From positions 142,163 through 200,479 of the forward strand of contig NZ_LT797699.1 in NCBI RefSeq assembly GCF_900009135.1: 58,317 bases of DNA, read 5' to 3'. Every line of letters begins with the position of its first letter. Position 1 is the stretch's first letter. The DNA comes from Planktothrix sp. PCC 11201. GTDB taxonomy: Bacteria; Cyanobacteriota; Cyanobacteriia; Cyanobacteriales; Microcoleaceae. A program made the translations under genes and the position numbers. Shown one piece after another: positions 3,958 through 28,615 of the stretch. Under the pieces are notes generated by a model. The model did not search any database, was not told where the DNA came from, and saw only the letters and a list, made by a program, of their open reading frames with translations.

Positions 3958-5145
3958 ATGAAAATCCTACAAATTATTCCTTCAATTTCCTTAGTATATG
4001 GTGGCCCAAGTCAAATGATCCGGGGTCTGTCTGCTGCGTTAGGAAAACTGGGGGTTGAGGTGACGGTTTTAACGACTAATTCTAATGGCGATCGGGGACA
4101 ACCGCCCTTAGATGTTCCTTTGGATATTCCTGTACAGGAAAAGGGTTATCAGGTGCGCTATTTTCCCTGTTCTCCCTTTCGTCGTTATAAATTTTCTTTA
4201 GATTTATTAAACTGGCTAAAAAACCACGCCTCTGAATATGATTTAGCCCATATTCATGCCTTATTTTCTCCCGTAACTTCGGTGGCTGCAACCGTCGCCC
4301 GTTATCAAAAATTACCCTATATTTTACGCCCATTAGGAACCCTTGATCCAGCCGATTTAAACAAGAAAAAACAGTTAAAAAAACTCTATGCAGCCTTATT
4401 AGAACGTCCCAATATTGCCGGGGCGGCGGCGATTCATTTTACCAGTCAGGAAGAAGCCCGAATATCGGAACGATTTGGAGTCAAAACGAATGATTTAGTG
4501 ATTCCTTTAGGCGTAACTTTACCTGAATTAACCGAAATTCCCCAAGTAATTTTATCCCATTTAGAAATAAAGCCGAATATTCCGATTATTTTATTCTTAT
4601 CTCGAATTGAACCCAAAAAAGGACTGGATATTTTGATTCCGGCTTTAGAAAAAGTCTTAAAAACCGGATTAGAGTTTCAATTTATTTTAGCAGGTTCTAA
4701 TCCTCAAGATCCCGAATATGAGGCCAAAATCAAACAACAAATTCAACAATCTCCTTTAGGCGAAAAAACAATAATTCCCGGGTTTGTCACCGGAGAAATC
4801 AAAACCGCTTTATTAACAATAGCGGATTTATTTGTTTTACCTTCCTATTATGAAAATTTTGGCATTGCCGTCGCAGAGGCGATGGCGGTTGGTACTCCGG
4901 TGGTGATTTCCAAGGGAATTTATATTTGGGAAGATGTGGAAAAAGCCCAAGGAGGTTGGGTCGGAAATGGCAATATTGATGAAATTGCAAGTTTAATAGA
5001 AACCGCATTAACTAATCCACAGGAACGTCAACAGCGAGGATTAAATGCTCAAAATTATGCCTTAAATTATTATAGTTGGGATGCGATCGCTCAACAAATG
5101 ATTCAAGCCTATCAAGGATTAATTTCAACTTCAAGATCATTATAA
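3958..5145 (+). CDS. GT4 family glycosyltransferase
   Basis: This 395-residue GT-B glycosyltransferase has an N-terminal acceptor domain (MKILQIIPSISLVYGGPSQM, with the GGPS loop typical of exopolysaccharide GT4 enzymes) and a C-terminal nucleotide-sugar domain. The latter shows FLSRIEPKKGLDILIPAL near residue 212 and the acidic motif ENFGIAVAEAMAVGTPVVIS near residue 299. The family adds sugars to lipid-linked or surface glycans in the cytoplasm. Acceptor and donor are unknown. A heptapeptide-like PLDVPLDIPV stretch near residue 45 looks like a local insertion. Confidence 0.85.
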   Translation: MKILQIIPSISLVYGGPSQMIRGLSAALGKLGVEVTVLTTNSNGDRGQPPLDVPLDIPVQEKGYQVRYFPCSPFRRYKFSLDLLNWLKNHASEYDLAHIHALFSPVTSVAATVARYQKLPYILRPLGTLDPADLNKKKQLKKLYAALLERPNIAGAAAIHFTSQEEARISERFGVKTNDLVIPLGVTLPELTEIPQVILSHLEIKPNIPIILFLSRIEPKKGLDILIPALEKVLKTGLEFQFILAGSNPQDPEYEAKIKQQIQQSPLGEKTIIPGFVTGEIKTALLTIADLFVLPSYYENFGIAVAEAMAVGTPVVISKGIYIWEDVEKAQGGWVGNGNIDEIASLIETALTNPQERQQRGLNAQNYALNYYSWDAIAQQMIQAYQGLISTSRSL

Positions 5146-5887: not shown

Positions 5888-6379
5888 TCAAATTTCGACA
5901 AATAAAAAAGGTCTGACTGATAAAATCATCCGATCCAATTCAGATCGATTGTGTTCAAGAAGATCATGCCCCCATAATTCATTCGTCTTCTTGGCACAAT
6001 CTTCTGCTAGAGCTTCCCCGATCCCTTCAAAACTCTTATTAGTAACTCTCCTGAGCTTCTCTGGGTTGGATTTTACTCCCAGAATAAATACTCTTTCTAT
6101 TAAATCATCTGGAATATAACTCTGCACATAACTGAATCGATCCTCCCGCTTATCAAAATCAATCAGTAAAACCATTCTTCTTTCTTGGAATTGCCTAATT
6201 TTTGGGAGATGATCATTGATAAAAGTCTCCAAAAGATTTTCCCAACCCCGATCATGGGGTAGAACTTGAATAACTGTCCCATTCACGTTTCGATTAAGAA
6301 TAAATCCATTAGCAATTTGGCGGTTCGCATCATCTTCAGGCAATATAAGAATATGGAGTAGATGCCGATTAATCCTCAT
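5888..6379 (-). CDS. TOPRIM-like partner protein of the ATPase
   Basis: This 163-residue protein has a conserved-looking acidic site at ILPEDDANRQIANGF (about residue 13) and a later DxD in VLLIDFDKRED (about residue 72). That Glu plus Asp-x-Asp arrangement is characteristic of TOPRIM-type folds, including OLD nucleases and DUF4276-like proteins. I infer a metal-dependent nuclease or related effector; the exact family is not certain. Its ATG overlaps the ATPase stop codon in an ATGA, so the two are translationally coupled and probably act as one complex. Its C-terminus RPFLFVEI is short and hydrophobic. Confidence 0.6.
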   Translation of the reverse strand: MRINRHLLHILILPEDDANRQIANGFILNRNVNGTVIQVLPHDRGWENLLETFINDHLPKIRQFQERRMVLLIDFDKREDRFSYVQSYIPDDLIERVFILGVKSNPEKLRRVTNKSFEGIGEALAEDCAKKTNELWGHDLLEHNRSELDRMILSVRPFLFVEI

Positions 6380-7500
6380 ACTTCGATATCCCCAGAAATC
6401 AAGGTATTAATTAAGTCCCCTGTAAAAGTTATATCACTGAGGGATCTAATTAAAGTCGGCTCTAAATGGCTTTTGCGATCTAGTAGAAAGGTATTTTCAT
6501 CCGAAAACTTTCGGATAGCTTCAGGATTATGGGAAGTCACCAAAATTTGCCCATTATTCTTAAATGAGCGTCGTAATGACATGACAAAATGTCCAACTTC
6601 TGATAAAGAAAGATAGTTATCAGGCTCGTCCCAGAAGCAAAAAAGCGGGCCATAGAATTTATTGGCAGCTAAAACAAAAGCACAAATGAAAAAGCATTTT
6701 TCGCCATCAGATAAGTCTTGAAAGTCAACACTCAGATTCGCATTATTGGCTTCAAATCGAACAATCATGCTTTTGGTGTCTTTGCCAATCTGTTCATTCA
6801 AAAAATCCTGAATATCAGGAATAACTTCTCGGAGATATTTGTCAACTTGTGTATAGGCTGCTGGATAGCGACTCAGTAACCCAGAAAACCACTCCCCTAA
6901 GTTTGAACCGTCTCGCTTGGGCTGTAACGTTTCGGCGTGAGAATCTCCCGTCATTAGACTGGGAATGGGAGCTAAAATAATCATTCTAGCCAGCCAAGTC
7001 TTAAAAATCCGAAGCGGATCAGTTTCCGATTGCTCCTGAATAATAGGAAGGGCAACTAAATGCCAATCTACTAGAAATTGAGCTTCACGATTTTGTGAAC
7101 TGGTGTAAAGAGTAACTTGGGCTCCTTGGCGAGAGTAAATTGGAGATCCTGAAACTAGCAATTCCTCCTCAAAAACTCGAAGCTCTTTAAATCTTTCTGG
7201 CAACTCCAAAGCCAGAACATATTTGTATAATTTTTCATTTAATAATACTTCTATTTCAAATCTGATCGGAACATCAGATCTGCCACGAGCGAAATCTTTG
7301 GGACTAATCAGCTTAATCTTTTCAAGTTCGCCCATTCTATTGACACCCCGACCAATCGTCTGAAGTATCTCTAATGCAAGGGCAATAGTTGATTTACCCG
7401 AACCATTTTTTCCAATCAAGAGGACAGATGGCATCCCTTTTATAATCAGTTCAAAGTTTTCTAAGCATCTGAAGTTATGGACATATAACCTTTGGATCAT
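6376..7500 (-). CDS. AAA/ABC-type ATPase (AAA_21-like), probable defence ATPase
   Basis: From the chosen start (MIQRLYVHNFRCLENFELII) the protein has 374 residues. It shows Walker A GKNGSGKST near residue 31, the signature LSDGEKCFF near residue 265, Walker B PLFCFWDEPD near residue 288 and the H-loop LVTSHNPEAIR. This is the layout of SMC/RecF-like ATPases of the AAA_21 or OLD type, which in many defence systems sense phage and control a nuclease partner. I prefer the ATG at 7500 because a GGAG sits about ten bases upstream and family members begin at this strand; an in-frame ATG 13 codons earlier (7539) is possible. It forms an ATGA overlap with the TOPRIM-like gene. Confidence 0.8.
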   Translation of the reverse strand: MIQRLYVHNFRCLENFELIIKGMPSVLLIGKNGSGKSTIALALEILQTIGRGVNRMGELEKIKLISPKDFARGRSDVPIRFEIEVLLNEKLYKYVLALELPERFKELRVFEEELLVSGSPIYSRQGAQVTLYTSSQNREAQFLVDWHLVALPIIQEQSETDPLRIFKTWLARMIILAPIPSLMTGDSHAETLQPKRDGSNLGEWFSGLLSRYPAAYTQVDKYLREVIPDIQDFLNEQIGKDTKSMIVRFEANNANLSVDFQDLSDGEKCFFICAFVLAANKFYGPLFCFWDEPDNYLSLSEVGHFVMSLRRSFKNNGQILVTSHNPEAIRKFSDENTFLLDRKSHLEPTLIRSLSDITFTGDLINTLISGDIEV

Positions 7501-7660
7501 GGTAAAATCACTCCACAGTATCCACAAAAATTTCAACAATACCGACGTAATCGCCCTTTCTCCATCAATCCTACATCAATTCACGGGTTGCGCCCAGATG
7601 TAGTTACAATAGGGGCAGTATATGAATGACTATTTTTACCCCTTATTGATCCCCCCAACG

Positions 7661-10510: not shown

Positions 10511-10604
10511 ATTTTGATTGAACTTGAGGGACGTTCGCTGCAACGTCTCCTAAGATTTGACTCAGCTATAATAAAAACAAGAAATTTTAATCCTTGTGAC
10601 TCCT

Positions 10605-11558
10605 ATGGTTGATATTACTATCGCGATTCCTACCTATAATGGGGCGACCCGTTTACCTGCGGTTTTAGAAAAATTGCGATCGCAAACTGGAACAGAACAA
10701 ATCAACTGGGAAATTATAATTGTTGATAATAATAGTACGGATAGTACCGCAGAATTAGTTAAAACTTATCAAGATAATTGGTCAGATATTGTTCCTTTAA
10801 AATGTGTTTTAGAAACAGAACAAGGGGCAGCCTTCGCTCGAAAACGAGCCATTAAAGAGTCGGAATCGTTATTGATTGGCTTTTTAGATGATGATACCTT
10901 ACCCGCTTTAGATTGGGTGGAAAAAGCCTATGAATTTGCTCAAAACCATCCTAAAGCTGGGGCATTTGGGAGTCAAATCCATGGGGTTTATGAAGCAGAA
11001 ACCCCTACTAATTTTAATCGGATTTCCAGTTTTTTTGCTATTACAGAACGGGGGGATAGTCCCCATTTATATGAACCCAAAATGAAGATGTTACCGCCTT
11101 CTGCGGGGTTGGTAGTCCGTTGTCAAGTTTGGTTAGAAACTGTACCAGAAGACACCTTTTTAAGTGGACGTTCTAGTCAATCTATTTTGAATAGTGAAGA
11201 CTTAGAAGCGATTATGTATATTCAAAATGCTGGGTGGGAAATTTGGTATAATTCGGAAATGCACCTCTATCATCAAATTCCTAAACAACGGTTAGAACGA
11301 GATTATTTATTGTTTTTAATGCGAAGTACGGGGTTAGCACGGCATCATATTCGGATGTTACGGTTAAAACCTTGGCAACGGCCGTTATTATTTCCCCTGG
11401 GGTTAGGAAATGATATGAGAAAGGCGATCGCTTACTATCTCAAACATCGAAAAGAATTAAAAACCGATGTGGTGGCGGCTTGTGAAATGGAGTTTTTAAA
11501 AAGCACTGTGATTAGTCCCTTTTATTTGTGGAAAACATCTTATCTAAAAAAATTATGA
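10605..11558 (+). CDS. hpsE: HpsE-like GT2 glycosyltransferase (copy 1)
   Basis: This GT2 glycosyltransferase of about 317 residues has the nucleotide-sugar start VDITIAIPTYNGATRLP, the VDNNSTDST loop and the DDD metal site in GFLDDDTLP near residue 94. It resembles HpsE of the Nostoc hormogonium polysaccharide locus, and the nearby hpsA/pseudopilin genes support that. I use the ATG at 10605, because it aligns with the start of the tandem copy; the GTG at 10596 is an alternative. A TATAAT lies at 10567-10572 but no good -35. The stop overlaps the next start as ATGA. The enzyme probably adds a sugar to exopolysaccharide at the cytoplasmic membrane. Confidence 0.75.
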   Translation: MVDITIAIPTYNGATRLPAVLEKLRSQTGTEQINWEIIIVDNNSTDSTAELVKTYQDNWSDIVPLKCVLETEQGAAFARKRAIKESESLLIGFLDDDTLPALDWVEKAYEFAQNHPKAGAFGSQIHGVYEAETPTNFNRISSFFAITERGDSPHLYEPKMKMLPPSAGLVVRCQVWLETVPEDTFLSGRSSQSILNSEDLEAIMYIQNAGWEIWYNSEMHLYHQIPKQRLERDYLLFLMRSTGLARHHIRMLRLKPWQRPLLFPLGLGNDMRKAIAYYLKHRKELKTDVVAACEMEFLKSTVISPFYLWKTSYLKKL

Positions 11559-12505
11559 TTGATTTTACCGTTGTTATTCCTACCTATAATGGTGCTAGTC
11601 GGGTTCCTGATGTGTTAGAGAAATTGCGATCGCAAACTGGAACAGAAAATATCACTTGGGAAATTATTGTTGTTGATAATAATAGTAATGATCAAACGGC
11701 TGATATAGTTCAGAATATCATTGCATCCTGGCAAGAAGTTTTCCCGCTCAAGTATGTATTTGAAGCCAAACAGGGTGCAGCTTTTGCCAGACAACGGGGA
11801 CTAGAGGAAGCTCAGGGGGAGTTAATTGGGTTTCTCGATGATGATAACTGGCCGGATGAAAATTGGGTAGCCCAAGCCCATAATTTTGCACAGCTTTATC
11901 CCCAAGCGGGCGCTTATGGCGGACAAATTCATGGAGTTTATGAAGTGCCACCCCCAGAAAATTTTAAGGCCATTGAGGGATTTTTAGCCATTCGAGAACG
12001 GGGGCCAGAACCCAACCGTTATCAACCCCAGGTGTTAAGCTTACCCCCAGGAGCAGCAATGGTGGTTAGAAAGCAGGTGTGGAGTCAAGTTGTACCCAAG
12101 CAACCTCAAATGAGTGGGAAGTTACCCGGGGGAAAAATGGTGCAAGGGGATGATTGGGAACCCTTGATGTATTTACATAAAGCAGGCTGGGAAATTTGGT
12201 ATAATCCATCTATGCACACCTATCATCAGATTCCGGCTTGGCGACTCAAACGGGATTATTTATTATCTTTGATTCATGGGTCGTGTTTATCTTTTTGTCC
12301 CTTACGAATGATTGGTGCTAAATTCTATGAAAAGCCTATAATTTTATCGCGAACTGTAGTAGGAAATAGTTACAATGCTATGCGGCATTATTTTAAATAT
12401 CAGGGTCAGCTTAAAACCAATTTAATTGCCGAGTGTCAAATGCAGATTTATTTAAGCCGAATTAGTAGTGCTTTTTATTGGATGAAGCGAAGTTTAAACC
12501 CTTAA
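11555..12505 (+). CDS. hpsE: HpsE-like GT2 glycosyltransferase (copy 2)
   Basis: This 316-residue GT2 enzyme is a tandem paralogue of the preceding gene: both share VVIPTYNGA, EKLRSQTGTE, VDNNS and the QGAAFAR segment. The DxD-like motif is GFLDDDNWPDENW. The start MIDFTVVIP at 11555 overlaps the previous stop (ATGA), so I reject the longer in-frame start at 11528. The pair shares local DNA identity near the 5' end, including a HIP1 octamer at the same place, consistent with duplication. It is the second gene of an operon that continues into the GT2 gene at 12522, 16 bp downstream. Confidence 0.75.
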   Translation: MIDFTVVIPTYNGASRVPDVLEKLRSQTGTENITWEIIVVDNNSNDQTADIVQNIIASWQEVFPLKYVFEAKQGAAFARQRGLEEAQGELIGFLDDDNWPDENWVAQAHNFAQLYPQAGAYGGQIHGVYEVPPPENFKAIEGFLAIRERGPEPNRYQPQVLSLPPGAAMVVRKQVWSQVVPKQPQMSGKLPGGKMVQGDDWEPLMYLHKAGWEIWYNPSMHTYHQIPAWRLKRDYLLSLIHGSCLSFCPLRMIGAKFYEKPIILSRTVVGNSYNAMRHYFKYQGQLKTNLIAECQMQIYLSRISSAFYWMKRSLNP

Positions 12506-12521
12506 TTATCATGATCTAATT

Positions 12522-13457
12522 ATGACTTTAATTTCTGTGATCATTCCTGTTTACAATGCAGAGCTAACAATTAAAGAAACAATTGAGTCGGTTTTAAATC
12601 AAACTTTTAAAGACTGGGAATTAATTATTATTGATGATGGATCTCAAGACTCAACAGTGAGGATAATTAGGGAAATAGAAGATTCACGAATTAGAATATT
12701 TTCTTACTCTAATGCAGGTTTAGCATCAAGTCGAAATCGAGGCATTGATCATGCTCAAGGGGAATATATTACTTTTCTGGATGCTGATGACCTATGGACT
12801 CCAGACAAATTAGAAGCGCAGTTTCAAGCATTACAAGAACATCCAGAGGCTGCTGTTGCCTATAGTTGGACAGACTATATCGATCAGTCAAGTCAATTTT
12901 TGCATTCTGGTAGACAGATTACAATAAATGGCGATGTTTATGAACATTTATTAGTTAATAATTTTTTAGAAAATGGTTCTAACCCGTTAATTCGTAAACA
13001 AGCTTTAAATCAGGTGGGAGAGTTTGATACATCTTTAAAAGCAGGAGAAGATTGGGATATGTGGCTGAGATTAGCAGCAGATTATCAATTTGTAGTAGTT
13101 ACACGCCCTCAGATTTTATATCGAGTTTCGACTGGTTCCATGTCCTCTCAAATTAAAAATCAAGAAAGAGAATGTTTAAAAGTTATTGAAAAAGCTTTTA
13201 AATTTGCTCCTGAGTCTTTACAGCCTTTAAAAAGAAAGACTTTAGCAGAACTATATAAATATCTCATGTGGAAAATTTTTCAGCAGCAGCCGAGTCATAA
13301 GCAAGGTTTGATTTTAATGGAATATCTCATTAATTATTCTACTCATGAGCCTGAATGGAAAAAAGAAATAAAATTTATCTTGATCATGTTTATAAAAAGT
13401 TTAACAACTTTAATTTTACCTTCTAGGTTTTCCCAAAAAATTCTTAAAAAAGATTAG
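12522..13457 (+). CDS. GT2 glycosyltransferase A (carries inverted-repeat arm)
   Basis: The protein is a 311-residue inverting GT-A glycosyltransferase. It has SVIIPVYNAELTIKETI at the N-terminus, IIDDGSQDST and the metal-binding DADD (FLDADDLWTPDK near residue 83), then the acceptor motif GEDWDMWLRLA near residue 177. Codons 27 to about 230 lie in a 614-bp stretch repeated almost perfectly, inverted, in the gene at 13471-14385. Only the first 26 residues and the last 80 or so differ between the two. The C-terminal tail (about residues 232-311) is helical and ends in a hydrophobic stretch, suggesting membrane association. Confidence 0.85.
   Translation: MTLISVIIPVYNAELTIKETIESVLNQTFKDWELIIIDDGSQDSTVRIIREIEDSRIRIFSYSNAGLASSRNRGIDHAQGEYITFLDADDLWTPDKLEAQFQALQEHPEAAVAYSWTDYIDQSSQFLHSGRQITINGDVYEHLLVNNFLENGSNPLIRKQALNQVGEFDTSLKAGEDWDMWLRLAADYQFVVVTRPQILYRVSTGSMSSQIKNQERECLKVIEKAFKFAPESLQPLKRKTLAELYKYLMWKIFQQQPSHKQGLILMEYLINYSTHEPEWKKEIKFILIMFIKSLTTLILPSRFSQKILKKD
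12600..13213. repeat. 614-bp inverted repeat, left arm
   Basis: This arm matches the reverse complement of 13694-14307 over 614 bases. I could spot only about two base differences (GGATCT/GGTTCT and AGG/AAG), both near the outer end. Each arm lies wholly inside a glycosyltransferase gene. The arms are separated by 480 bp holding the two different C-termini and the short convergent gap. Confidence 0.9.
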
Positions 13458-13470
13458 TTATATTAAGAAG

Positions 13471-14385
13471 TTAATTAACTGTTTTGACTTGAAAAAACAT
13501 GAGTATTATTTTAATAGTTACACTTATAATAATTTTGGGTTTTAATAATAATTCTGGTTTATATTTGCAATATTGCCATAAACAGTAGGCAGCTATTCCA
13601 GCATTCTGCCGTGAAGGAGAATCTTCAATAGCTTTAAAAGTGAGATATTTATAAAGATTTGATAAACTTAAATACTTTAAATTTTGTCGAGATTCAGGAG
13701 CAAATTTAAAAGCTTTTTCAATAACTTTTAAACATTCTCTTTCTTGATTTTTAATTTGAGAGGACATGGAACCAGTCGAAACTCGATATAAAATCTGAGG
13801 GCGTGTAACTACTACAAATTGATAATCTGCTGCTAATCTCAGCCACATATCCCAATCTTCTCCTGCTTTTAAAGATGTATCAAACTCTCCCACCTGATTT
13901 AAAGCTTGTTTACGAATTAACGGGTTAGAACCATTTTCTAAAAAATTATTAACTAATAAATGTTCATAAACATCGCCATTTATTGTAATCTGTCTACCAG
14001 AATGCAAAAATTGACTTGACTGATCGATATAGTCTGTCCAACTATAGGCAACAGCAGCCTCTGGATGTTCTTGTAATGCTTGAAACTGCGCTTCTAATTT
14101 GTCTGGAGTCCATAGGTCATCAGCATCCAGAAAAGTAATATATTCCCCTTGAGCATGATCAATGCCTCGATTTCGACTTGATGCTAAACCTGCATTAGAG
14201 TAAGAAAATATTCTAATTCGTGAATCTTCTATTTCCCTAATTATCTTCACTGTTGAGTCTTGAGAACCATCATCAATAATAATTAATTCCCAGTCTTTAA
14301 AAGTTTGTTTCAAAACTGATTCAATAGTTTTTTGAATCGTTTTTTCTCCATTATAAACGGGTATAACAACAGAAATTTTAGGCAT
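13471..14385 (-). CDS. GT2 glycosyltransferase B (carries inverted-repeat arm)
   Basis: This 304-residue GT2 enzyme starts MPKISVVIPVYNGEKTIQKT and continues with the same catalytic core as the gene at 12522 (DDGSQDST, FLDADDLWTPDK, GEDWDMWLRLA). The core proteins differ at one visible residue (TVKII against TVRII). The C-terminal 75 residues are different (YLSLSNLYKYLTFKAIEDSP and onward). It faces the 12522 gene with only 13 bp between the stop codons. It is the second gene of a two-gene operon with 14391-15377, 5 bp away. High core identity with unlike ends indicates gene conversion or inversion rather than simple duplication. Confidence 0.85.
   Translation of the reverse strand: MPKISVVIPVYNGEKTIQKTIESVLKQTFKDWELIIIDDGSQDSTVKIIREIEDSRIRIFSYSNAGLASSRNRGIDHAQGEYITFLDADDLWTPDKLEAQFQALQEHPEAAVAYSWTDYIDQSSQFLHSGRQITINGDVYEHLLVNNFLENGSNPLIRKQALNQVGEFDTSLKAGEDWDMWLRLAADYQFVVVTRPQILYRVSTGSMSSQIKNQERECLKVIEKAFKFAPESRQNLKYLSLSNLYKYLTFKAIEDSPSRQNAGIAAYCLWQYCKYKPELLLKPKIIISVTIKIILMFFQVKTVN
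13694..14307. repeat. 614-bp inverted repeat, right arm
   Basis: This is the partner of 12600-13213 in inverted orientation. Homology stops abruptly at both ends: just after the codons for QTFKDW begin on the outer side, and at APES on the inner side. Confidence 0.9.
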
Positions 14386-14390
14386 ATTTT

Positions 14391-15377
14391 TTAATTGATA
14401 TCGGTTTTAATATACATCATTAAAGCTCCAATATTAGAGATTCTACCAAATTTAGATAAAATCCATTCAGCTTGTTTTTTAGGTAAGAAAATAAATGTGG
14501 AAATTTTTAACAAAGTTCTGAAAGTAACTTTCTGACGGAGCATGGTTGGATCATTAATTAGGATATTGTATAGAAAATGCAACGCTAATAAACCCTGCTT
14601 TGGGCCCGGTTGAACTTCGAGAGCTTTAAAAGTCAGATTTTTATATATATTAGCAAGACTTCTCTTTTTTAGAGGTTTTAATGAATCAGGAACTTGGCTA
14701 AAAGCTTGTTCAATTACCTTTTTGCTACCTGCTTCTAGTTTTAACACATTAGCAGATGCTGATTCAGAGGATTGTCTATATAAGATTTGAGATTTAGGAA
14801 CAGTAATAAACTGATAATGTTTTGCTAACCTTAACCAGATATCCCAATCTTCTCCAGAAAGTAAAGACGAATCAAATTGACCTACTGCTTCTAAAGCCTG
14901 ACGACGAATTAAAGGATTAGAACCATTTTCTAAAAAATTAACCACTAACAAATAAGGATAAACATTACCATTAATGGTAACGTGACTACCTGGACGTAAG
15001 AACTGGCTTGATTCATCAATACAATCCGTCCAACTATAAGCAACAGCCGATTCCGGGTTATCCTGTAGGGCTTGATATTGAGCCTCAATCTTATCGGGTG
15101 TCCACAAATCATCTGCATCTATAAAGGCAATATATTCACCCCTAGCATGGGATATTCCTCGATTCCGACTGGTCGATTGATTCGTCTTAGCATAGGAAAA
15201 AACCTTGAGTCGAGGATCATTAATTGGGTTAACAATATCTAAAGTTGAGTCAGTGGAACCATCATTGATTATAATGAGTTCTAAATCGGAAAAAGTTTGA
15301 TTAAGCACAGATGTAACTGTTTCTCTAATCGTTTTTTCTCCATTGTACACAGGAATAATTACAGAAACTACAGGCAT
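14391..15377 (-). CDS. GT2 glycosyltransferase C
   Basis: This 328-residue GT2 enzyme is a more distant paralogue of genes A and B. It shares SVIIPVYNGEKTI, DGSTDST, FIDADDLWTPDK and GEDWDIWLRLA, but differs throughout, so it has not taken part in the recent homogenisation. It has a longer C-terminus (KKQAEWILSKFGRISNIGAL). It starts only 27 bp from the divergent sulfotransferase start at 15405, so any promoters must overlap the coding regions. It is the first gene of an operon with gene B. The substrate is unknown; a surface polysaccharide is likely from context. Confidence 0.85.
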   Translation of the reverse strand: MPVVSVIIPVYNGEKTIRETVTSVLNQTFSDLELIIINDGSTDSTLDIVNPINDPRLKVFSYAKTNQSTSRNRGISHARGEYIAFIDADDLWTPDKIEAQYQALQDNPESAVAYSWTDCIDESSQFLRPGSHVTINGNVYPYLLVVNFLENGSNPLIRRQALEAVGQFDSSLLSGEDWDIWLRLAKHYQFITVPKSQILYRQSSESASANVLKLEAGSKKVIEQAFSQVPDSLKPLKKRSLANIYKNLTFKALEVQPGPKQGLLALHFLYNILINDPTMLRQKVTFRTLLKISTFIFLPKKQAEWILSKFGRISNIGALMMYIKTDIN

Positions 15378-15404: not shown

Positions 15405-16247
15405 ATGAAAATTAATTCATTTCAAACTTTCTTTTTAGTCGGATGTTCCCGTTCTGGAACCACCTTTTTACAAAGTCTATTAGCAGCCCATCCTCAGATT
15501 ACTTCTTTTAAAGAATCCCAGTTTTACCATTTCATGGTTCCTGTAAAATATGAACGGAAAAGATTTGCTTTAAATTTGGCTTCTCGGAAACTCAAGCCCC
15601 ATATTCAAAAGTATTTTGAACAGGATCTTAAACGCCCAGAGTTATTAAAATATTTTCCGAGTTTACCTCTGATGCGCTGGCAAAGCGATGCTTTCATCAA
15701 AACCATGAGATCTTTAACTCAGGAAGAAGGAAATCATGTTTTTTTAGAAAAAACCCCTGACCATATTTATTATATCTCCTATATTGTCAAACTCGTACCC
15801 AATGCCAAATTTATTCATATTGTTCGCAGTGGTGCGGAAGTAATTGCTTCTTTATACGAAGCTACCCATCAATACCCTGAACCTTGGGCGGGGGCGAGAA
15901 GTTTGGATGTTTGTATTGAAAACTGGTTGAAAGCCATTAAAATTACTCAAGATTACATGAACGAACCTAATCATATCGTAGTGGGTTATCAAAATCTTGT
16001 AAACAATCCTGAATCCACCTTAGAAAAACTCTGTGAGTTTATGGAACTTAATTTTGATATACAAATGTTAAATAACTATACAAAGGTGTCGGAAAAACTA
16101 ACTTTGGAACAGGCCGGAAGAACCGTTAACAATGAAATTAAAAATACGGGTTTGAAGAAGTTCTATAAAATTTTTGATGAAACTCAACAGCAGTATGTTT
16201 TGAGCCAAATTAAAAACGTCAATCTTGAATTAATCAATCAGATTTAA
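15405..16247 (+). CDS. Sulfotransferase family protein
   Basis: The 280-residue protein has the 5'-phosphosulfate binding loop GCSRSGTTFLQSLLAAHP near residue 14 and the 3'-phosphate binding segment HIVRSGAEVIASL near residue 139. Both are diagnostic of PAPS-dependent sulfotransferases. FLEKTPDHIYY precedes the second motif as in the family. Members move a sulfuryl group from PAPS to a hydroxyl or amine of a sugar, lipid or peptide. The neighbouring glycosyltransferases suggest the acceptor is a polysaccharide or glycolipid. A second, more diverged sulfotransferase lies at 50758. Confidence 0.85.
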   Translation: MKINSFQTFFLVGCSRSGTTFLQSLLAAHPQITSFKESQFYHFMVPVKYERKRFALNLASRKLKPHIQKYFEQDLKRPELLKYFPSLPLMRWQSDAFIKTMRSLTQEEGNHVFLEKTPDHIYYISYIVKLVPNAKFIHIVRSGAEVIASLYEATHQYPEPWAGARSLDVCIENWLKAIKITQDYMNEPNHIVVGYQNLVNNPESTLEKLCEFMELNFDIQMLNNYTKVSEKLTLEQAGRTVNNEIKNTGLKKFYKIFDETQQQYVLSQIKNVNLELINQI

Positions 16248-19249: not shown

Positions 19250-20605
19250 GTGAACTGCCGTGCAGTAAGTCCCATCCCTCAAGTGCTGACTAGATTCGAG
19301 GGTGAAAGCTACGGGTTCAGACCTGGACGTTCAGCCCACGACGCAATGTCAAGAATCTTCCAAAGCATCAATCAAGGTGAATACTACATCCTAGATGCTG
19401 ATATCTCAAAGTGCTTTGACCAGATTAACCATAAACACCTACTGTCCAAAATTGATTGTCCATCAACAATAAAAGCCCAAATCAGACAATGGTTAAAAGC
19501 TGGAGTTATGGACAACGGCATATTTAACGCAACAGAGGCAGGCACTCCGCAAGGAGGTGTCATTAGTCCTTTACTTGCAAACATCGCACTAGATGGAATG
19601 ATTAATTTAGTTAAAAATTTCTTTCCAAAGAAACCAAATAGCAAAAATTACGCTACCACCATCAGATATGCCGATGATTTCGTGGTAATCAGTCCACAAT
19701 TAAAAATCATTCAACAGTGCCAAGCCTCCATCGAAAAATGGTTAAAACCTATAGGGTTAGAACTGAAACCAGCCAAAACCCGTATATGCCACACACTGAG
19801 AGAAATCGAAGTAAACGGCAAAAAGGTAGCACCAGGATTCGACTTTCTAGGTTGGAATTTTCGCCAATATCCAGTTGGTAAACATCATGCCAGTAAAACT
19901 GGTGGTAAAAATCCTAAATTATTAGGACTCAAAACCCTAATTAAACCTAGTAATAAGGCAATCAACGCTCACGCGAATAAGGTAAAGGAAGTGATAAAAA
20001 ACCACAAATCCTCACCCCAACACGCATTAATCAAAAACCTAAATCCGGTCATAAGAGGATGGTGCAATTATCATTCCAAAGTCGTTTCTAAAGAAACGTT
20101 CTCCTCCTTAGACCACATGACATGGCAAAGATTAAGAGCATGGACAGTCAGAAGATGCGGTAAAGCAAGTTATGGAAAACTGAAAAATTATTTCAGGAAA
20201 AACGGGAATAGTTCGTGGAACTTTGAAACCAAAGAGGGTTATAAACTATTAGCCCATCAAGATACATCTATCACCCGTCATGTAACTATAAGACCTGAAG
20301 CATCACCCTATGACGGAAACTGGACATATTGGAGTACAAGAAAAGGTACATCCTTCGATGTACCCAACAAAGTAGCGTTTCTGCTTAAAAAACAGAAAGG
20401 CAAGTGTACCTTCTGTGGACAATATTTCACCTCAGAAGACATTGCAGAAATCGACCATATCATTCCTACGTCTTTAGGCGGAAAAAATGACTATAAGAAC
20501 CTGCAATTACTACACCGCCATTGTCACGATACTAAAACGGCAACTGATGGGTCTTACAACTCAAAAGAAACCGGATGTTCTGATGATAACAGTCAACTAG
20601 ACTAG
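19250..20605 (+). CDS. ltrA: Group II intron reverse transcriptase/maturase, N-terminally truncated, with HNH domain
   Basis: The protein of about 451 residues begins directly at the RT2/RT3 region (GESYGFRPGRSAHDAM). It keeps GTPQGGVISPLLANI and the catalytic YADDFVVI, the maturase X region (IKNLNPVIRGWCNYH) and a C-terminal HNH endonuclease (CTFCGQ, EIDHIIPTSLGGKND, LLHRHCHDTK). The usual N-terminal RT0, RT1 and early RT2 blocks, roughly 100-150 residues, are missing. The only start in frame is a GTG at 19250, and upstream sequence is ribozyme. The truncation probably destroys or weakens activity; splicing may depend on a maturase from another intron copy. Confidence 0.8.
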   Translation: MNCRAVSPIPQVLTRFEGESYGFRPGRSAHDAMSRIFQSINQGEYYILDADISKCFDQINHKHLLSKIDCPSTIKAQIRQWLKAGVMDNGIFNATEAGTPQGGVISPLLANIALDGMINLVKNFFPKKPNSKNYATTIRYADDFVVISPQLKIIQQCQASIEKWLKPIGLELKPAKTRICHTLREIEVNGKKVAPGFDFLGWNFRQYPVGKHHASKTGGKNPKLLGLKTLIKPSNKAINAHANKVKEVIKNHKSSPQHALIKNLNPVIRGWCNYHSKVVSKETFSSLDHMTWQRLRAWTVRRCGKASYGKLKNYFRKNGNSSWNFETKEGYKLLAHQDTSITRHVTIRPEASPYDGNWTYWSTRKGTSFDVPNKVAFLLKKQKGKCTFCGQYFTSEDIAEIDHIIPTSLGGKNDYKNLQLLHRHCHDTKTATDGSYNSKETGCSDDNSQLD

Positions 20606-21455: not shown

Positions 21456-24400
21456 ATGTCACAACATCACAAAAACAAGTTCTCTAACCCCATTCTGTCT
21501 TTGTTCCGTTCGATTCGGATTGCTGTTCAACGGATGACACGGCAGACACTGCGATCACTGCTTAGAGTTTGGGTCAAAATAAACCGTCAGGGTCATTATA
21601 GTCGGGCGGGTTTTGTGTTGCCTACTGTGACCATGGTGCTGTTAGTGGTGGTGCTATTGACCATAACGATTATGCTGCGATCGATGGATCGGGCAAAAAT
21701 GGCTCAATATCGGCGGGTAGATGAACAGGTTTTACAAGCCGCAACCCCGGCATTAGATCGGGCAAAAGCAAAAATTCAACGTTTATCTTCAGCTAAAGAT
21801 CCAACACTGCCCCGTGCTACCCCATCAGACAGTGAACTATATCGAGCTTTAACAGGAAGTATTTATAGGTTAAAAGATGAAACACAACTTCAAGTTAGAT
21901 ATGCCACAGATGGTAATATTAACCTGAATGAAGATAGTGCTACTCCACCCATACCGTTAGAAGACCGGACAACAATCTCAACAGCCTGGAAGTTTCCAGT
22001 TGATACGGATAATAACGGTAAATTTGATACTTGGACAATTTACGGAGTTTACTTCCGTAACCCTATTGAGAAAAACGGCATTGTTCCTGCTAGAAACCCT
22101 TTAGATGCTCGGACTCCACCCTACACGGCGGTATCTGATATCAAATCAGGTTGTAATGTGGAAGGAACCAGTTCCAGTTTAGTGGGAGGGGGGTGGTATC
22201 CCGTTGGCAGTAAATTGAAAAAAGCAATTTTTACCTATGTTGTGAATGTTCCGATCGCAGAAGATCCAACAAACGATGCAATTACTAAATGGAATGCTGC
22301 GAAATACGGCGGTATTACAGCCGAAGCTAAAGCAACTAGTGCGGTTTCTGCCCTGGAATATCAACAAGATGTCAGCCGACTTCCCCTAGTTAATAATGCG
22401 GTGGTCTATCGAGATGATTTAGAAATGGCACCTGGGGGGGGATTAAAATTTCAATTAAATGGGCGAATTCTGACCAACAGTAGCCTGTTGGTAACTCAGT
22501 TTACCGGACTCAGATTTTATCAAGTTAGTAGCCCGGGTTCTTGTTTCTTTGAAGATCCAGAAAATAGCAAGATTATTGTTGGCGGAGAAGTGGTCAGAGG
22601 GTTTTCAGGAGGTACTACTGGTAACTTGGATGTCGATGTTGATTTATTCCAAGGAGATTTTTTAACTCCTACCGGAGCTAAAATCTCAACAGCTAATCAA
22701 ACCGTTACGGACGCAGCCCTAGACACCCTATCTAATAGCAGTGCCTACGAGACCCGTCTAAATTATTTAGTCAGTAAGGCTCCTGCTAGTTTACTAAATC
22801 AGATCACAGACCCCATTAAACGCAGTAAAGCTCTCAGAACCTATTTTGAAGACCGCACCAGAAAAGTTCCCTATAAAGAAGTTGATGTCAATGGGACAGA
22901 TACTATGCAAGATCCTCTAGTCAGTGGCACAGTTGTTAGACCTGCTGATGGTTGGATCTACCCAACTAAGCCCAATGACGGGGGAAAAATTAGCTTAGAA
23001 AATCAACGACTGAATTTATTAACCGCCAAAGGAACCTCTACGGCTGCTTATCGCATGGAAGCAAGCGAGCCCTCTGATGATGAAAAAGAAAGCAAGTTAG
23101 GTGATCGAATTCTAGCGGGGAATGGTTTACCCCTGAAATGGTATATCAACAATAAAGAGGTGAGCGGTTCAGAGCCCCAATATCTCACCAATGCTGGTAC
23201 AGCGATCAACTGGACAGTTGGTGCTGGCGGAAGCGGGACTTCCTCACAACAAAGAACCCGTCAAACCCGCATTCAAGAACTCCCCGATGTGGGTTCAACC
23301 GATCGAGATGGGTTCTGGGAAATTGTCGCGGGAACAACCCCAAAAAACCCCGATGAGCCCTATGGGGGCCTGCGGGTGGTCACAGGGGCAGGAATTTATA
23401 GCCGGAATAACTCCTTCTTACCTCCTCCTGAACTTGATGTTGATTCAGCCGGAAAAGTGATTGCGGGAGTCTATGACACCTCGACATCCGTCAAAAATCC
23501 CATCGTCTGGCCAGATACGATGCCGATGTCTGTTCCCGACAAAGCCAAAATTTTCGATAATAGTGACCTCTATGATACCGATGGCCTCACTCCTTTAACA
23601 ACCTTGATTGGAACCGCAAAAGAAGCAGGTGATGGAGGACGTTGGAAACCCCAAGATAGTGCATCTCCAACGAAAGGAGATTTACAAATGCGGGCAACGG
23701 TGGTGTATCACTATGCTCAAAGTAGTTTTTCTAAAGAACTCAGTGAAGAAGCTAATCTAAAAGGAGTTTGGACTAATGTTAAACAAACTCCCATCGCCTG
23801 TGTCAGTAACTATTATGATCCTTCAACGGCTTTAACTGCCAAGAATATGCCGACTCTGAGAGTCGATAAATTGAACGCCACCGGAAAGATTGACACAGAT
23901 CCCGCAGGACAAGTCATCACCCTACCCTGGAATACCGCAACCGGTGGTAAGTCCAATAATGGGATCGTCTATGGCCCACCTCCGGCAGAAAGCTCTTACA
24001 CCACGGCTTTGAAGAATCAAGCCGCCCTGGTTTTCCCCGATGGTAGACAGGTTAACCCCACATTAGCTTCGGCATTAGCCGCCAACCCTCGGAAGTTATC
24101 AGAACAATCGGCCATCGACGCGGCTCTGTGTGCCTATGGCATTCTCGATGGAACCCTAAAACCCTTAGCCTCTCCTCCAATTCCCCATGGGGCGATTCGA
24201 GAAACAGCCTTCTTAGATGCCCGACAAATCAAAGCCATTGAGCAGGATAAGACGACAGCTAATGCTGTTGATGAAACCTTTACCCTTAATAAAGAAGGAG
24301 GAATAAAAGGCACTTTAAGCGGAAGTGCCTACGACTTACCCTTAGAAAATCGTCAACCCCTGGAAATCCGAGCCACAATTCTGGATCTGTATCAACTGCG

Positions 24401-26903
24401 GAGCAAACAAATTGCCCAAACAACAACCGGGCCAACAAAAGGGGGTCAAGAATATCTGCTCCCCCTGAGTGGAGTTGTTTATGCCAGTCGTGAGGATGCA
24501 CTGCCCGACGAGACAGGTTCAAATACTTATGCCAGTTCAACGGACTCTTTGCTAGACCCGACGCGCCGTCCCAATGGGATTATGTTAATTAATGGCAAAT
24601 GTTTGGCACGGGATACCGCAGGCACTTGTAACCCCGCTCTCGCAGGCAATGATGAAGCAAAAATTCAAGCGATTACCCGTGAAAAGGGCCTAACCTTGGT
24701 TTCCAATCTTCCGGTCTATATTAAAGGACAGTTCAACCCCCATACGAAGGAAGAATTCAAAACAGCCCTAACTGCTGACTGGAGTAATTTCTACACCCGC
24801 GCCCCTAGTGCTGTTAACAAAACCACAGCCACCATTACCAAAGCAGACCGCAACTTAGAGGAGAATTTTGCCTGTCGTCCTGGTGATCCTCGACTGCCCG
24901 GTTGTACAACTGGGGATAATTGGCGACCAGCAACGATTCTGTCTGATTCTGTGACTGTTCTTTCGGGATCTACAACCACTGCTGCTGATACCCAAGGAAC
25001 AGCCCTAAATACGGGCTTCCGATTTGGCTTCCGCAATGAAGGAGACTTTGACCTGAGAAATAATGCCGGGGTTGCCAGGGTTGGTTATGACTTAGATGCT
25101 GATGGCAGTATTAAAGCGACATCAATAGTTAATGAATCAACCTTTGGTTTAGATTTGAATGGGAATGGAACAACTACTGATACGAATGTTAAAGAGGTAG
25201 ATATTACCGCTAAAGCAGCCAGGATGATCAATGGTTTCGATCCTTATAACAACTTTGTAACGAATGGCTTAAGCAGTGGTCTTCGTACCTTTGATACAAA
25301 TAACGATGCGATAATCAACAGTTCCGATACGGTTTATACCGATGACAACTATATAGCACTAACAGGCTTCAACAGTTCTTACTTCAATAACTTTGTCACC
25401 CCAGTTCAACGACGTTCTGCCGATTTTCCTGATTACATCATGGAAACTTGCCTCAAGTTGCCCCTTTCTGCCTGTGGGCCTCAAGATTGGGCTGTGGGAT
25501 ACAATATTGATGCAGATTACACGGATATCGATGGCAATAATAAATATGATGAACTGATTGATTATCAAAATTTTGATACGGTTTATCCCGGCAGCAGTAA
25601 CTTACTGAATAAACCTGATGGAACCAAGAAAAAAGAGTCAGAGTTAACCATTCGAGATTTGTTTAATCTTAAGAATTTACCGAACAATGATTCTTGGAAG
25701 CTAGATATTACTCAGAAAGGAACAGGTCAGTGTAAACAATTTTCAACTACTCCTAGTGGTTCAAATTTGGATAAATTTTGCCCTAATCGTTTGATTTCAG
25801 GTGGGGGATCTTATTGGAATCAGCCACAATTTCAGCGCTTTCCTCGTCGATTAGCTTTTCCACGAGATTCTCAATACAGATTGGTATTAGACAGTAATGG
25901 TCAACCTCCGATGGTGGGAGTTGCTGACCCAGGTGCTGGGGGGGGTAACGATATTTATAACGGTTCTTTAGGATGTTTTGGGATCAGTAGTGATGTTAAT
26001 CAGGATATCTATAGTTGTGCTCAACACGGTTCAGGTTCTGGCGGAAATAAATGGGAACCCCGTCGCTTGAATGATAATAAGAACTCGGTTACTACCCGTG
26101 CTTTATGGTTTAGAACCAGAAATGGTAACGTAGTAGACTACGGTGCAAACTATCCCCTGTGGTACTACGATCCTTTAAATCCGGGGACTCCCAACAAGTT
26201 ACAAACAACTGTTCAAAACCCCCTATTAGTTCCAGTTTTGCAACTTGAAATGACCACTGGAACACCAACTACCTCAACAACCAACACCAAGGCGGATCTA
26301 GGTACTAGCTGGTTGATGATTCCTGATAATGGCCCGACTGGCAATAAAGTTACACCCTATGATGTGGTTATGGGTACGGGTGATGTCCCTTCTCGGAAAA
26401 CTGGCGCAATTGGAGATTTTAATGGGGGATTACCCAACCTAGCCAGACTTCTGGAAAACTGGCAGGGGAAAACCGTTAAAGTCAGTGGCTCGTTTCTTCA
26501 ATTCCAACGCAGTAAATATGCCACTGCCCCTTTCTGGGGTGTCTTCACCACCACTGCCCAGCAGGCTCCACCAATCTTTAACACGGGCGCGCGAGTCTAC
26601 AACACATCTAGTGCTAGTGGGCAAACACCTTACTTCTCGCAACCTCAACGGAACTGGGGGTTTGATGTGGGTTTGCTCTCCCAATCTCCTGACCTATTCG
26701 CCCAAAAACTAACTACTCCTCCTTCTGGTTCCCAACCGGCGGAATATTTCCGAGAAGTGAGCCGGAGTGATGAATGGGTGAAAACACTGTTGTGTGCTAA
26801 AGAAGTGGACGATACTACTGGCCAACCCACAGCCACGAACGCTGTTCAAAATACTTCTATACGACCAACAAAATCATTCTGTAAAGATTACACAGGAGGC
26901 TAA
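21456..26903 (+). CDS. hpsA: Hormogonium polysaccharide biosynthesis protein HpsA
   Basis: The 1815-residue protein has one N-terminal membrane segment in a pilin-like context (GFVLPTVTMVLLVVVLL, about residues 52-68), like PilX/prepilin-type N-termini. A long Gly/Asn/Thr/Asp-rich extracytoplasmic body follows. In Nostoc punctiforme, HpsA is needed for hormogonium polysaccharide and gliding. The C-terminal part has EF-hand-like or dockerin-like Asp-rich stretches (DTNNDAIINSSD, DADYTDIDGNNKYDE). Four pseudopilin genes follow in the same direction, the nearest separated from the hpsA stop by one base. The role is inferred from locus similarity; no catalytic motif is visible. Confidence 0.8.
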   Translation: MSQHHKNKFSNPILSLFRSIRIAVQRMTRQTLRSLLRVWVKINRQGHYSRAGFVLPTVTMVLLVVVLLTITIMLRSMDRAKMAQYRRVDEQVLQAATPALDRAKAKIQRLSSAKDPTLPRATPSDSELYRALTGSIYRLKDETQLQVRYATDGNINLNEDSATPPIPLEDRTTISTAWKFPVDTDNNGKFDTWTIYGVYFRNPIEKNGIVPARNPLDARTPPYTAVSDIKSGCNVEGTSSSLVGGGWYPVGSKLKKAIFTYVVNVPIAEDPTNDAITKWNAAKYGGITAEAKATSAVSALEYQQDVSRLPLVNNAVVYRDDLEMAPGGGLKFQLNGRILTNSSLLVTQFTGLRFYQVSSPGSCFFEDPENSKIIVGGEVVRGFSGGTTGNLDVDVDLFQGDFLTPTGAKISTANQTVTDAALDTLSNSSAYETRLNYLVSKAPASLLNQITDPIKRSKALRTYFEDRTRKVPYKEVDVNGTDTMQDPLVSGTVVRPADGWIYPTKPNDGGKISLENQRLNLLTAKGTSTAAYRMEASEPSDDEKESKLGDRILAGNGLPLKWYINNKEVSGSEPQYLTNAGTAINWTVGAGGSGTSSQQRTRQTRIQELPDVGSTDRDGFWEIVAGTTPKNPDEPYGGLRVVTGAGIYSRNNSFLPPPELDVDSAGKVIAGVYDTSTSVKNPIVWPDTMPMSVPDKAKIFDNSDLYDTDGLTPLTTLIGTAKEAGDGGRWKPQDSASPTKGDLQMRATVVYHYAQSSFSKELSEEANLKGVWTNVKQTPIACVSNYYDPSTALTAKNMPTLRVDKLNATGKIDTDPAGQVITLPWNTATGGKSNNGIVYGPPPAESSYTTALKNQAALVFPDGRQVNPTLASALAANPRKLSEQSAIDAALCAYGILDGTLKPLASPPIPHGAIRETAFLDARQIKAIEQDKTTANAVDETFTLNKEGGIKGTLSGSAYDLPLENRQPLEIRATILDLYQLRSKQIAQTTTGPTKGGQEYLLPLSGVVYASREDALPDETGSNTYASSTDSLLDPTRRPNGIMLINGKCLARDTAGTCNPALAGNDEAKIQAITREKGLTLVSNLPVYIKGQFNPHTKEEFKTALTADWSNFYTRAPSAVNKTTATITKADRNLEENFACRPGDPRLPGCTTGDNWRPATILSDSVTVLSGSTTTAADTQGTALNTGFRFGFRNEGDFDLRNNAGVARVGYDLDADGSIKATSIVNESTFGLDLNGNGTTTDTNVKEVDITAKAARMINGFDPYNNFVTNGLSSGLRTFDTNNDAIINSSDTVYTDDNYIALTGFNSSYFNNFVTPVQRRSADFPDYIMETCLKLPLSACGPQDWAVGYNIDADYTDIDGNNKYDELIDYQNFDTVYPGSSNLLNKPDGTKKKESELTIRDLFNLKNLPNNDSWKLDITQKGTGQCKQFSTTPSGSNLDKFCPNRLISGGGSYWNQPQFQRFPRRLAFPRDSQYRLVLDSNGQPPMVGVADPGAGGGNDIYNGSLGCFGISSDVNQDIYSCAQHGSGSGGNKWEPRRLNDNKNSVTTRALWFRTRNGNVVDYGANYPLWYYDPLNPGTPNKLQTTVQNPLLVPVLQLEMTTGTPTTSTTNTKADLGTSWLMIPDNGPTGNKVTPYDVVMGTGDVPSRKTGAIGDFNGGLPNLARLLENWQGKTVKVSGSFLQFQRSKYATAPFWGVFTTTAQQAPPIFNTGARVYNTSSASGQTPYFSQPQRNWGFDVGLLSQSPDLFAQKLTTPPSGSQPAEYFREVSRSDEWVKTLLCAKEVDDTTGQPTATNAVQNTSIRPTKSFCKDYTGG

Positions 26904-26904
26904 A

Positions 26905-27567
26905 ATGAACAATCAATTTCAATTCAAGGGGGGCAGTCCCCCCACATCGGGTTACACGATCTTGGAAGGTTTAATGGCTGTGGTGGTGGTATCCGTAATG
27001 CTATTAGCAATTGGCCCAGTTATTGCCTTCTCCGTGGGAACCCGTGTTCAGGCTAAACGGGTTGAACTAGCTACCCAGGCGGCAAGAAGTTATATTGATT
27101 GGGTAAAAGCTGCTTCTGATGACAATACAGTAACGGAAAGAACGCCCAAACAAAGTGCAATTCCTGCAATTACGGCTCCAGCAACAGGTGATTTAACAGG
27201 TGATTGCACATCAAAAGATGGTTATTGTACAACAGATAAAAAATTGTACTGTGTAAATCTTGATGAAACACCAGGATGTCAAACCAATAGTCCGGTGGAT
27301 ATGGTGGTTCAACCTATCATAACTCAGGTAACTGATAATGATGTTGCTAATTCAAACAAGGGTTATCAAATGCAAGTTGGAGTTTATCGCGCTAACTCTT
27401 TTGTCGCTGGTGTAACCCTTCAACCTGCTACCAAGTCAGATAGCTTAACAACAAATGCGGTAGGCAATCGTAGTTTACCTTTAGTTGTTATCAAAACAGA
27501 AGTTTTACCGTCAGGTGCAACCTTTGACAATCTTAAAGAACGACTAAATGGTACACCTTCACCGTAA
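26905..27567 (+). CDS. hpsB: HpsB-like pseudopilin
   Basis: The 220-residue protein has a type IV prepilin-like signal: TSG followed by YTILEGLMAVVVVSVMLLAI, with Glu at +5 and a hydrophobic helix, at about residues 14-38. I choose the ATG at 26905 because AGGAGG ends five bases before it and the hpsA stop is one base upstream, so the genes are tightly coupled. The longer in-frame start inside hpsA is rejected. The globular part has four Cys (DCTSKDGYC, YCVNLDETPGC) that may form disulfides. Pseudopilins of this type likely assemble a short pseudopilus for polysaccharide secretion. Confidence 0.75.
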   Translation: MNNQFQFKGGSPPTSGYTILEGLMAVVVVSVMLLAIGPVIAFSVGTRVQAKRVELATQAARSYIDWVKAASDDNTVTERTPKQSAIPAITAPATGDLTGDCTSKDGYCTTDKKLYCVNLDETPGCQTNSPVDMVVQPIITQVTDNDVANSNKGYQMQVGVYRANSFVAGVTLQPATKSDSLTTNAVGNRSLPLVVIKTEVLPSGATFDNLKERLNGTPSP

Positions 27568-27622
27568 TATTTTGAGTGTAACTTAATTCCCCTGCTTTTC
27601 TGAAGTTAATGGAGCAATAAAA

Positions 27623-28615
27623 ATGAGTATCTTTCTAAAATTATTACTTAAACATCAAGTTAGGTCAAGTTCGGCAAAATTTGATCAAAACTATCAAGTC
27701 AAAGGCATGACGATGATAGAACTGTTAGTCGGTACAGTTATTGCTTTTATCGTGATCACTCCCTTGATGGGAATGGTGCTTGGTATGTTAAATGATGATC
27801 AACGAGAAAGTGCCAAAGCCAACACTGAAGAAGAAATCCAATCTGCATTAGATTATATTGCAGAGGATGTTAGTCAAGCTCTATATATTTATGTTCCCAA
27901 CAAACAAGAAACAACATCATCAGGAACAACTATAACTACTGATGAAATTAAAAGTCTAAAAGATAATGGTTTTTTACCGAATACTGCAAGTCCTAATAAT
28001 GAAATACCTGTTCTCGTTTTTTGGAAACGAAAAATAGTAGAAGATGCTGTTCCCGTTGATTCTACTAAACTACCTAAAGACTGTAACCCCAAACCCTACA
28101 CTCCACAAAAACAAAGGAACTGTAATGATACCTACGTTTTATCATTAGTCAGTTATCAATTGCTTCCAGGAACAGATAAAACATCAATTTGGTGTCAACC
28201 TTCAGGAACAACTTGTCCTAGTCGAATAGTTCGGTATGAAATTTCTGATGGATTAAAAAACTCTAATGGAATCTACTACAAAAAGGCTGAACTTACGACA
28301 GAACTCCAGGAGTATGCAGAAGAAAATATTACAGATTATAATAGTGGTTTTAGTCTATCTGATCCATCAAAAAATGTCACTACTAAAGCTAATTTTCCAG
28401 TAAGTCAAGTGTTAGTTAACTACATTGAAAAATTTGAACTAGATCCTAGCTCAACAAATAACTTAGCTAAATTAACAATTCAGGCAAATGCAATAAGACG
28501 TAACGACGCTAATGCAGTTTGTCCGACTGATTCTAAGATTGGTGTTAACAGTAATTCACCCTATTGTCCAAAATCATCAGTTCAATTGCGAGGCTTAAGT
28601 CGTCTAGGCAATTAG
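27623..28615 (+). CDS. hpsC: HpsC-like pseudopilin
   Basis: The 330-residue protein has a long leader of about 28 residues, then KG followed by MTMIELLVGTVIAFIVITPL, with Glu at +5 and a membrane helix. It resembles PulJ/GspJ-class minor pseudopilins in length and in the segment after the helix (SALDYIAEDVSQALYIYVP). Cys pairs occur in the C-terminal half. It is third in the hpsA operon-like array and likely sits at the tip or base of the pseudopilus. Assignment as HpsC rests on gene order. Confidence 0.7.
   Translation: MSIFLKLLLKHQVRSSSAKFDQNYQVKGMTMIELLVGTVIAFIVITPLMGMVLGMLNDDQRESAKANTEEEIQSALDYIAEDVSQALYIYVPNKQETTSSGTTITTDEIKSLKDNGFLPNTASPNNEIPVLVFWKRKIVEDAVPVDSTKLPKDCNPKPYTPQKQRNCNDTYVLSLVSYQLLPGTDKTSIWCQPSGTTCPSRIVRYEISDGLKNSNGIYYKKAELTTELQEYAEENITDYNSGFSLSDPSKNVTTKANFPVSQVLVNYIEKFELDPSSTNNLAKLTIQANAIRRNDANAVCPTDSKIGVNSNSPYCPKSSVQLRGLSRLGN

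Follow-up and report, generated by a model that had tools for sequence, protein, structure and literature searches.

The fucosyltransferase paralogues futA and futB of Helicobacter pylori are described to exchange segments by homologous recombination and to form chimeras, which the authors have tied to glycan variants in the part of their report considered here (PMC2583950). In the pneumococcal hsdS genes (cod/Spn556II), several forms were seen, with the tyrosine recombinase PsrA driving one inversion at a 15-bp repeat and unknown recombinases driving others, and the sections of this source that concern inversion report no detectable effect of a recA deletion (PMC4948785). In Nostoc punctiforme, hpsE, hpsF and hpsG correspond to Npun_F0070, F0071 and F0072, and the deletion of hpsE-G, as far as described in the parts considered, is the source for the need of these genes in motility polysaccharide (PMC12188702, PMC10581220). 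The window analysed here, a stretch of 58,317 nucleotides from Planktothrix sp. PCC 11201, resembles the hps genes of N. punctiforme in gene content and order, with a GT2 gene following hpsE and hpsF, but it adds to the arrangement described in these excerpts an inverted chimeric gene (gene b), a further paralogue (gene c) and a sulfotransferase gene (PMC12188702, PMC10581220).

Gene content of the locus

Judged by gene content, the glycosyltransferases of the window reside in the hormogonium-polysaccharide (hps) locus of a cyanobacterium of the genus Planktothrix, since the same stretch encodes HpsP (3958..5145, plus strand; NF038295, 684 bits, cut-off 550), HpsE (10596..11558, plus strand; NF038302, 480.7 bits, cut-off 300), a second HpsE-model protein in the hpsF position (11528..12505, plus strand; NF038302, 456.7 bits, cut-off 300), HpsA (21456..26903, plus strand; NF038301, 1375 bits, cut-off 400) and the pseudopilins HpsB and HpsC (26794..28615, plus strand), with HpsB scoring 184.2 bits against NF038303 (cut-off 150) and HpsC falling with 197.3 bits just below the cut-off of 200 for NF038304. 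The glycosyltransferase group is flanked by clpB and htpG and is accompanied by a sulfotransferase-like gene (15405..16247, plus strand; PF13469). Gene a (12522..13457, plus strand), which encodes a GT2 glycosyltransferase of 311 residues (PF10111/PF00535) and follows the two HpsE-model genes, was placed as putative hpsG by its position, because the order E-F-G equals the published order of hpsE, hpsF and hpsG in N. punctiforme. Gene b (13471..14385, minus strand; 304 residues, PF10111/PF00535), which converges on gene a with a gap of 13 nt between them, and gene c (14391..15377, minus strand), located directly behind b, were placed as hpsG paralogues by similarity. Among the best 25 NCBIfam models for genes a, b and c, none reached its cut-off.

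In 50 of the 79 cyanobacterial loci that were retrieved with gene a, the order HpsE, HpsE-like and GT2 is found on one strand, and in 40 of them hpsC is located upstream of this order. Copies of the hpsG type are adjacent on the same strand in 22 loci and convergent in two (L028, L049). The second of these, from Lyngbya aestuarii BL J (L049:3387-5252), has htpG and a sulfotransferase gene as neighbours of its convergent pair, the cores of which are not homogenised (longest identical run 18 nt). Scans for promoters (18 compared to 21.6 in shuffled sequence) and terminators (6 compared to 4.1) gave counts near the shuffle level and are uninformative. Besides the hps genes, the window contains a group II intron reverse transcriptase with maturase and HNH domains (19250-20605), whose NCBIfam match covers the profile only from position 92 on, which suggests that its N-terminal part is missing, an AAA_21/RecF-like ATPase gene adjoining a gene of 163 residues with no Pfam match (5888-7539), and direct repeats at 5218-5806 (277 nt, 88%) and 30238-30416 (114 nt, 94%).

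Inverted arms within two convergent genes

The original prediction of near-identical inverted 614-bp arms, one in each GT2 gene and enclosing an unlike middle, was confirmed. The left arm (12600..13213, plus strand) covers the catalytic core of gene a, which comprises residues of about 27-231 and has a GT-A fold as judged from a predicted model and PDB matches, the right arm (13694..14307, minus strand) covers the core of gene b, and both are identical at 612 of 614 positions. One of the two mismatches (12641/14266) is silent and the other (12661/14246) exchanges Arg and Lys at residue 47, leaving a perfect run of 552 nt (12662-13213 and 13694-14245). Including weaker flanks, the inverted pair extends over 714 nt at 96% identity (12518-13231 and 13676-14389) with a spacer of 444 nt. 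Beyond the arms, the identity between a and b amounts to 74% over nt 1-80 and to 48% from nt 693 on, and within residues 1-231 the two proteins differ at nine positions, eight of which are located in the first 26 residues. Since the arms end at nt 692 of the respective gene in both cases, the tails comprise 80 residues in a and 73 in b, and the proposed length of 75-80 residues thus holds for the former but not for the latter. The inner segment (13214..13693) consists of these C-terminal parts and the 13-nt gap. Along the 466 variable sites analysed, the longest run of sites identical in a and b spans 262, a value that was reached in 0 of 10,000 permutations (permuted maximum 39). Gene c, with a nucleotide identity of about 67% to a and b over the core, lies outside the arm identity and was not homogenised.

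The pair in other genomes of the genus

We have compared ten genomes of the genus, including the genome of the window (G000) and that of Planktothrix rubescens PCC 7821 (G001). The inner segment is present in one copy each in four of them (G000, G009, G001 and G003), where it matches the window with 95% identity over 480 nt in G009, and with 96% in G001 and 94% in G003, each over 446 of 480 nt. All four contain the whole convergent pair, with genes of 936 and 915 nt separated by 13 nt (the 936-nt form of G001a being taken at the second possible start), and in all four the orientation of the pair relative to its flanking genes is identical. In the metagenome-assembled genome G006, the arms are found on two contigs that each break off at nt 695 of their gene, with no inner segment in the assembly; both contigs (L111, L112) end within one identical stretch of 278 nt, in inverted relation. 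Four genomes (G007, G008, G002 and G005) show only one close gene of the hpsG type in the vicinity of hpsE in the stretches retrieved, and G004, which is 73% complete, contains short and weak matches only.

In G003 and G001, an additional hpsG-type gene (d) is found in the neighbourhood and gene c is not present between b and htpG. The b genes of both genomes carry tails of the b type behind cores that resemble gene c, with identities to c over nt 81-692 of 84.6% for G003b and 78.6% for G001b. A clade that joins tails of the G003b/G001b type with c was rejected by the tail data (p 0.0114). The missing c in these genomes would fit a deletion between b and c as tandem neighbours.

Two further features of these neighbourhoods were observed. 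In P. rubescens PCC 7821 (L109, L110), the stretch htpG-hpsE-hpsF occurs twice, and in each of the two copies htpG is interrupted by other sequence. The gene in the hpsF position of the window (11528-12505) looks mosaic, with near full-length nucleotide matches of 90-93% in G009, G003, G002 and G005 and good matches in G001, G006, G007 and G008 that are confined to its first 450-480 nt or so (81-82%).

Probable gene conversion between the cores

The comparison of cores and tails lends good support to a recurrent, non-reciprocal (ectopic) gene conversion between the cores of a and b as the probable process at a mosaic locus. In G000, both cores are 100% identical over nt 141-692, with identities of 85-89% to type-1 cores elsewhere and of 76% to G007x. 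The tails of gene a are 94.6-97.9% identical across four genomes (94.6-97.1% in the comparisons with G000a) and the tail of G000b is 94.1% identical to its counterpart in G009, 84.5% in G003 and 85.9% in G001, whereas the a and b tails of G000 are 48% alike. Within the tract, paralogues are thus closer than orthologues, whereas outside the tract the reverse is found. Tracts of identity between a and b, with ends that differ between genomes, are present in three of the five genomes with a pair: besides G000, they extend over nt 413-609 (197 nt) in G009, together with runs of 41, 77 and 48 nt, and over nt 416-693 in G006, where at least 278 nt are identical up to the contig ends. Tail orthology is readable in G000 and G009, as the tails of G006 are absent from its assembly. 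No tract was found in G003 and G001, where a and b share no identical run of 25 nt and have cores that are about 67% alike. Upon permutation of variable sites, the observed runs were reached in 0 of 10,000 cases in G000, G009 and G006 (in the last over nt 1-693 only), and in 93 of 10,000 cases in G003 and 1179 of 10,000 in G001. In light of the identities of the flanking genes clpB (92%) and htpG (94%) between the window and G009, the a/b identity in G000 probably arose after the genomes had split. As the b cores of G003 and G001 are of another type, with about 67% identity to a, homogenisation is not universal across the pairs of the genus.

Tree-based tests point in the same direction for the tails and are less informative for the cores. 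The C-terminal data reject a clade of G000a and G000b with p 1.8e-44 in a tree that carries a long-branch warning. The core data reject the b genes as one clade with p 7.9e-84, which is caused by G003b and G001b with their c-like cores, and they reject the a genes as one clade only at p 0.0385, in both cases for groups chosen after the identities had been seen. The core tree is weakly resolved and places G000 with G006b and G009b at a support of 61/85, which does not by itself show that the b core has moved to the a side.

As a control, we scanned 84 loci (the 79 mentioned above and L107, L108, L109, L111 and L112), 28 of which gave a total of 55 hpsG-type pairs, with the pair of the window excluded and with two places counted twice (L028 equals L109 and L030 equals L111). 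The longest identical run in this set is that of the a/b pair of G009, followed by runs of 50 nt in L036 and of 35 nt. With only G009 a/b exceeding 50 nt among the 55 pairs, we rejected homogenisation as a general habit of hpsG pairs. The locus L036 (3094-8199), from a Symplocastrum metagenome-assembled genome, contains five tandem hpsG-type genes, one pair of which shows the 50-nt run and a stretch of 120 nt at 95% identity, and it may represent a similar case on a smaller scale.

Breakpoints and proposed mechanism

The boundaries of the tract in G000 provide further detail. At the outer edge, G000b and G006b differ by a single mismatch as far as about nt 85 (98.8% identity over nt 1-80), beyond which G000b is a-type, as in G009a and G003a. 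At the inner edge, at nt of about 679-692, gene a carries b-type letters and differs from G009a, G003a and G001a. Because one step does not readily give both breakpoints, we infer a minimum of two copying events that ran in opposite directions. In comparisons of 40 nt, core blocks switch partner along the gene in several genomes.

We thus favour a mechanism, to which we assign a probability of roughly 0.85, where a and b are old hpsG-type paralogues whose catalytic core was overwritten by repeated non-crossover homologous recombination. In such a process, which presumably depends on RecA, the core of a or b would be replaced by the core of its partner, and copying would halt where homology ends, with an outer limit at a conserved motif close to residue 27 and an inner limit behind residue 231, where the unlike C-terminal parts begin. 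In G000, the outer core would have been copied from a to b and the inner core edge from b to a, although these directions rest on few relatives that are mosaics themselves. The convergent layout may allow copying to persist, because a crossover between inverted copies would invert rather than delete the intervening sequence. The likely outcome would be a pair of enzymes that share their catalytic specificity but differ in their C-terminal helical parts, both taking part in the synthesis of the motility slime polysaccharide.

Core alleles in a structural context

A predicted model of gene a, with a mean pLDDT of 91.5 that is lower in the last 11 residues, is GT-A-like up to about residue 205 and continues with helices. 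The end of the arm at residue 231 falls between two of these helices (211-228 and 236-254). Nearest relatives of known structure in the PDB are the chondroitin polymerase K4CP and other bacterial glycosyltransferases. Between genomes, the cores diverge in blocks at nt 121-240 and at nt 481-540, the latter a 60-nt block with a dS of 1.46, which spans the residues at a WDMW motif that read either AGEDWD or SVADWD. The acidic region of this sequence is the putative catalytic base, as in GT2 enzymes. Genes a and b carry one form per genome, which is AGEDWD in G000 and G006 and SVADWD in G009, and it is this match of active-site alleles within each genome that is left as the interesting point of the case. 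As the blocks are too short and mosaic, we make no claim of selection from their dN/dS values.

Alternative explanations

The identity of the arms could also have arisen in other ways. A collapsed assembly, in which arms that truly differ were written twice as one consensus, has to be considered for a genome of 103 contigs, where the identity of 552 nt is longer than a usual short read. The assembly has, however, retained two mismatches near the outer arm edge, and in G009, with its 4.78-Mb contig in an assembly of about five contigs, the identical runs are broken by differences, and we regard a collapse as very unlikely. Taken by themselves, the identical cores would equally look like the product of a recent inverted duplication of one gene with a later replacement of the tails. 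Both genes, however, must predate their identity, since close orthologues of the two tails and of the b N-terminus are present in other genomes. The similarity of b to G006b over its first 80 nucleotides and of its tail to G009b contradicts a recent duplication, which in our view has next to no chance of being correct. That both genes acquired one core from a foreign source may also be considered, although it is a less simple account than copying between them.

A different question concerns the consequence of crossovers between the arms, which would flip the inner segment, exchange the tails between the operons and thereby render the cells of one culture different, a process that may coexist with conversion. 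The geometry is favourable: the long arms are inverted, separated by 480 nt and share one codon register, and by reasoning rather than computation a flip should keep both frames open. In G006, both contigs break off at the inner end of the arm, as mixed orientations or unresolved repeats would give. The orientation is nevertheless constant in the four genomes that contain the segment, an argument that is weak because long identical arms are found only in G000 and G009, and reciprocal crossovers exchange arms but do not render them identical. No flipped inner segment was found among the ten genomes of the genus (four with the segment), and no site-specific recombinase among 24 proteins of the window, some of them scanned with one library only, and a dedicated inversion system is not supported. 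Since G003 and G001, with cores that are about 67% alike, share the orientation, the present order is probably ancestral. Of the two processes named in the original prediction, conversion is therefore borne out by tracts in three genomes and orthologous tails, whereas inversion is not, as no flipped form was encountered. The proposed effect of a flip would be small, because a and b are so similar in the 231 residues preceding the tails that both states would join one and the same core to the two existing tails, with only N-terminal residues and the operon producing each tail being shifted. We consider a flip by crossover to be unlikely; as judged from sequence, an inversion switch is unproven, and a flip at low frequency within the population may occur. 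Similarly doubtful is a picture of the pair as an active generator of slime diversity, where tail flips between operons in conjunction with matched catalytic domains would cause bloom filaments to differ from each other, each being self-consistent in its active-site allele.

Discussion

Our analysis describes a clear case, in three genomes, of paralogous glycosyltransferases that are alike in their catalytic domain and unlike in their C-terminal part, and it illustrates that no switch is needed to account for a striking inverted repeat within two genes. The findings point to the hps locus of filamentous cyanobacteria as prone to recombination and a source of variation in a polysaccharide of motility and biofilms, and they lead to a testable claim on which part of the enzyme sets the choice of donor and acceptor and which its location or partners, with the tails being candidates for a role of their own. 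The homogenisation of a and b is well supported as an ordinary exchange of segments between paralogues, and is thus a known process at a new locus; in the part of the literature that we have covered, we found no earlier report of a conversion of the a/b type at the hps locus.

Among described systems, the pneumococcal hsdS genes resemble a and b in that inverted repeats in neighbouring genes permit the exchange of coding halves, but in our case we find a single orientation and no recombinase, and the repeat corresponds to the catalytic domain, differences that refer to the hsdS system as portrayed in the sections considered (PMC4948785). The aeruginosin genes share with a and b the genus Planktothrix and the diversification of a biosynthetic locus by recombination, but they serve peptide biosynthesis and, in the portions of the report considered, vary by acquired accessory enzymes and long-range recombination and not by conversion in an inverted gene pair (PMC10744761). 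As in the a/b pair, two paralogous glycosyltransferase genes exchange segments in futA/futB, where the exchange was observed between isolates from a single patient and during passage, whereas for a and b it is seen only between genomes; the convergent inverted pair with conserved gene-specific tails is a feature of a and b that the considered part of the futA/futB study does not describe (PMC2583950).
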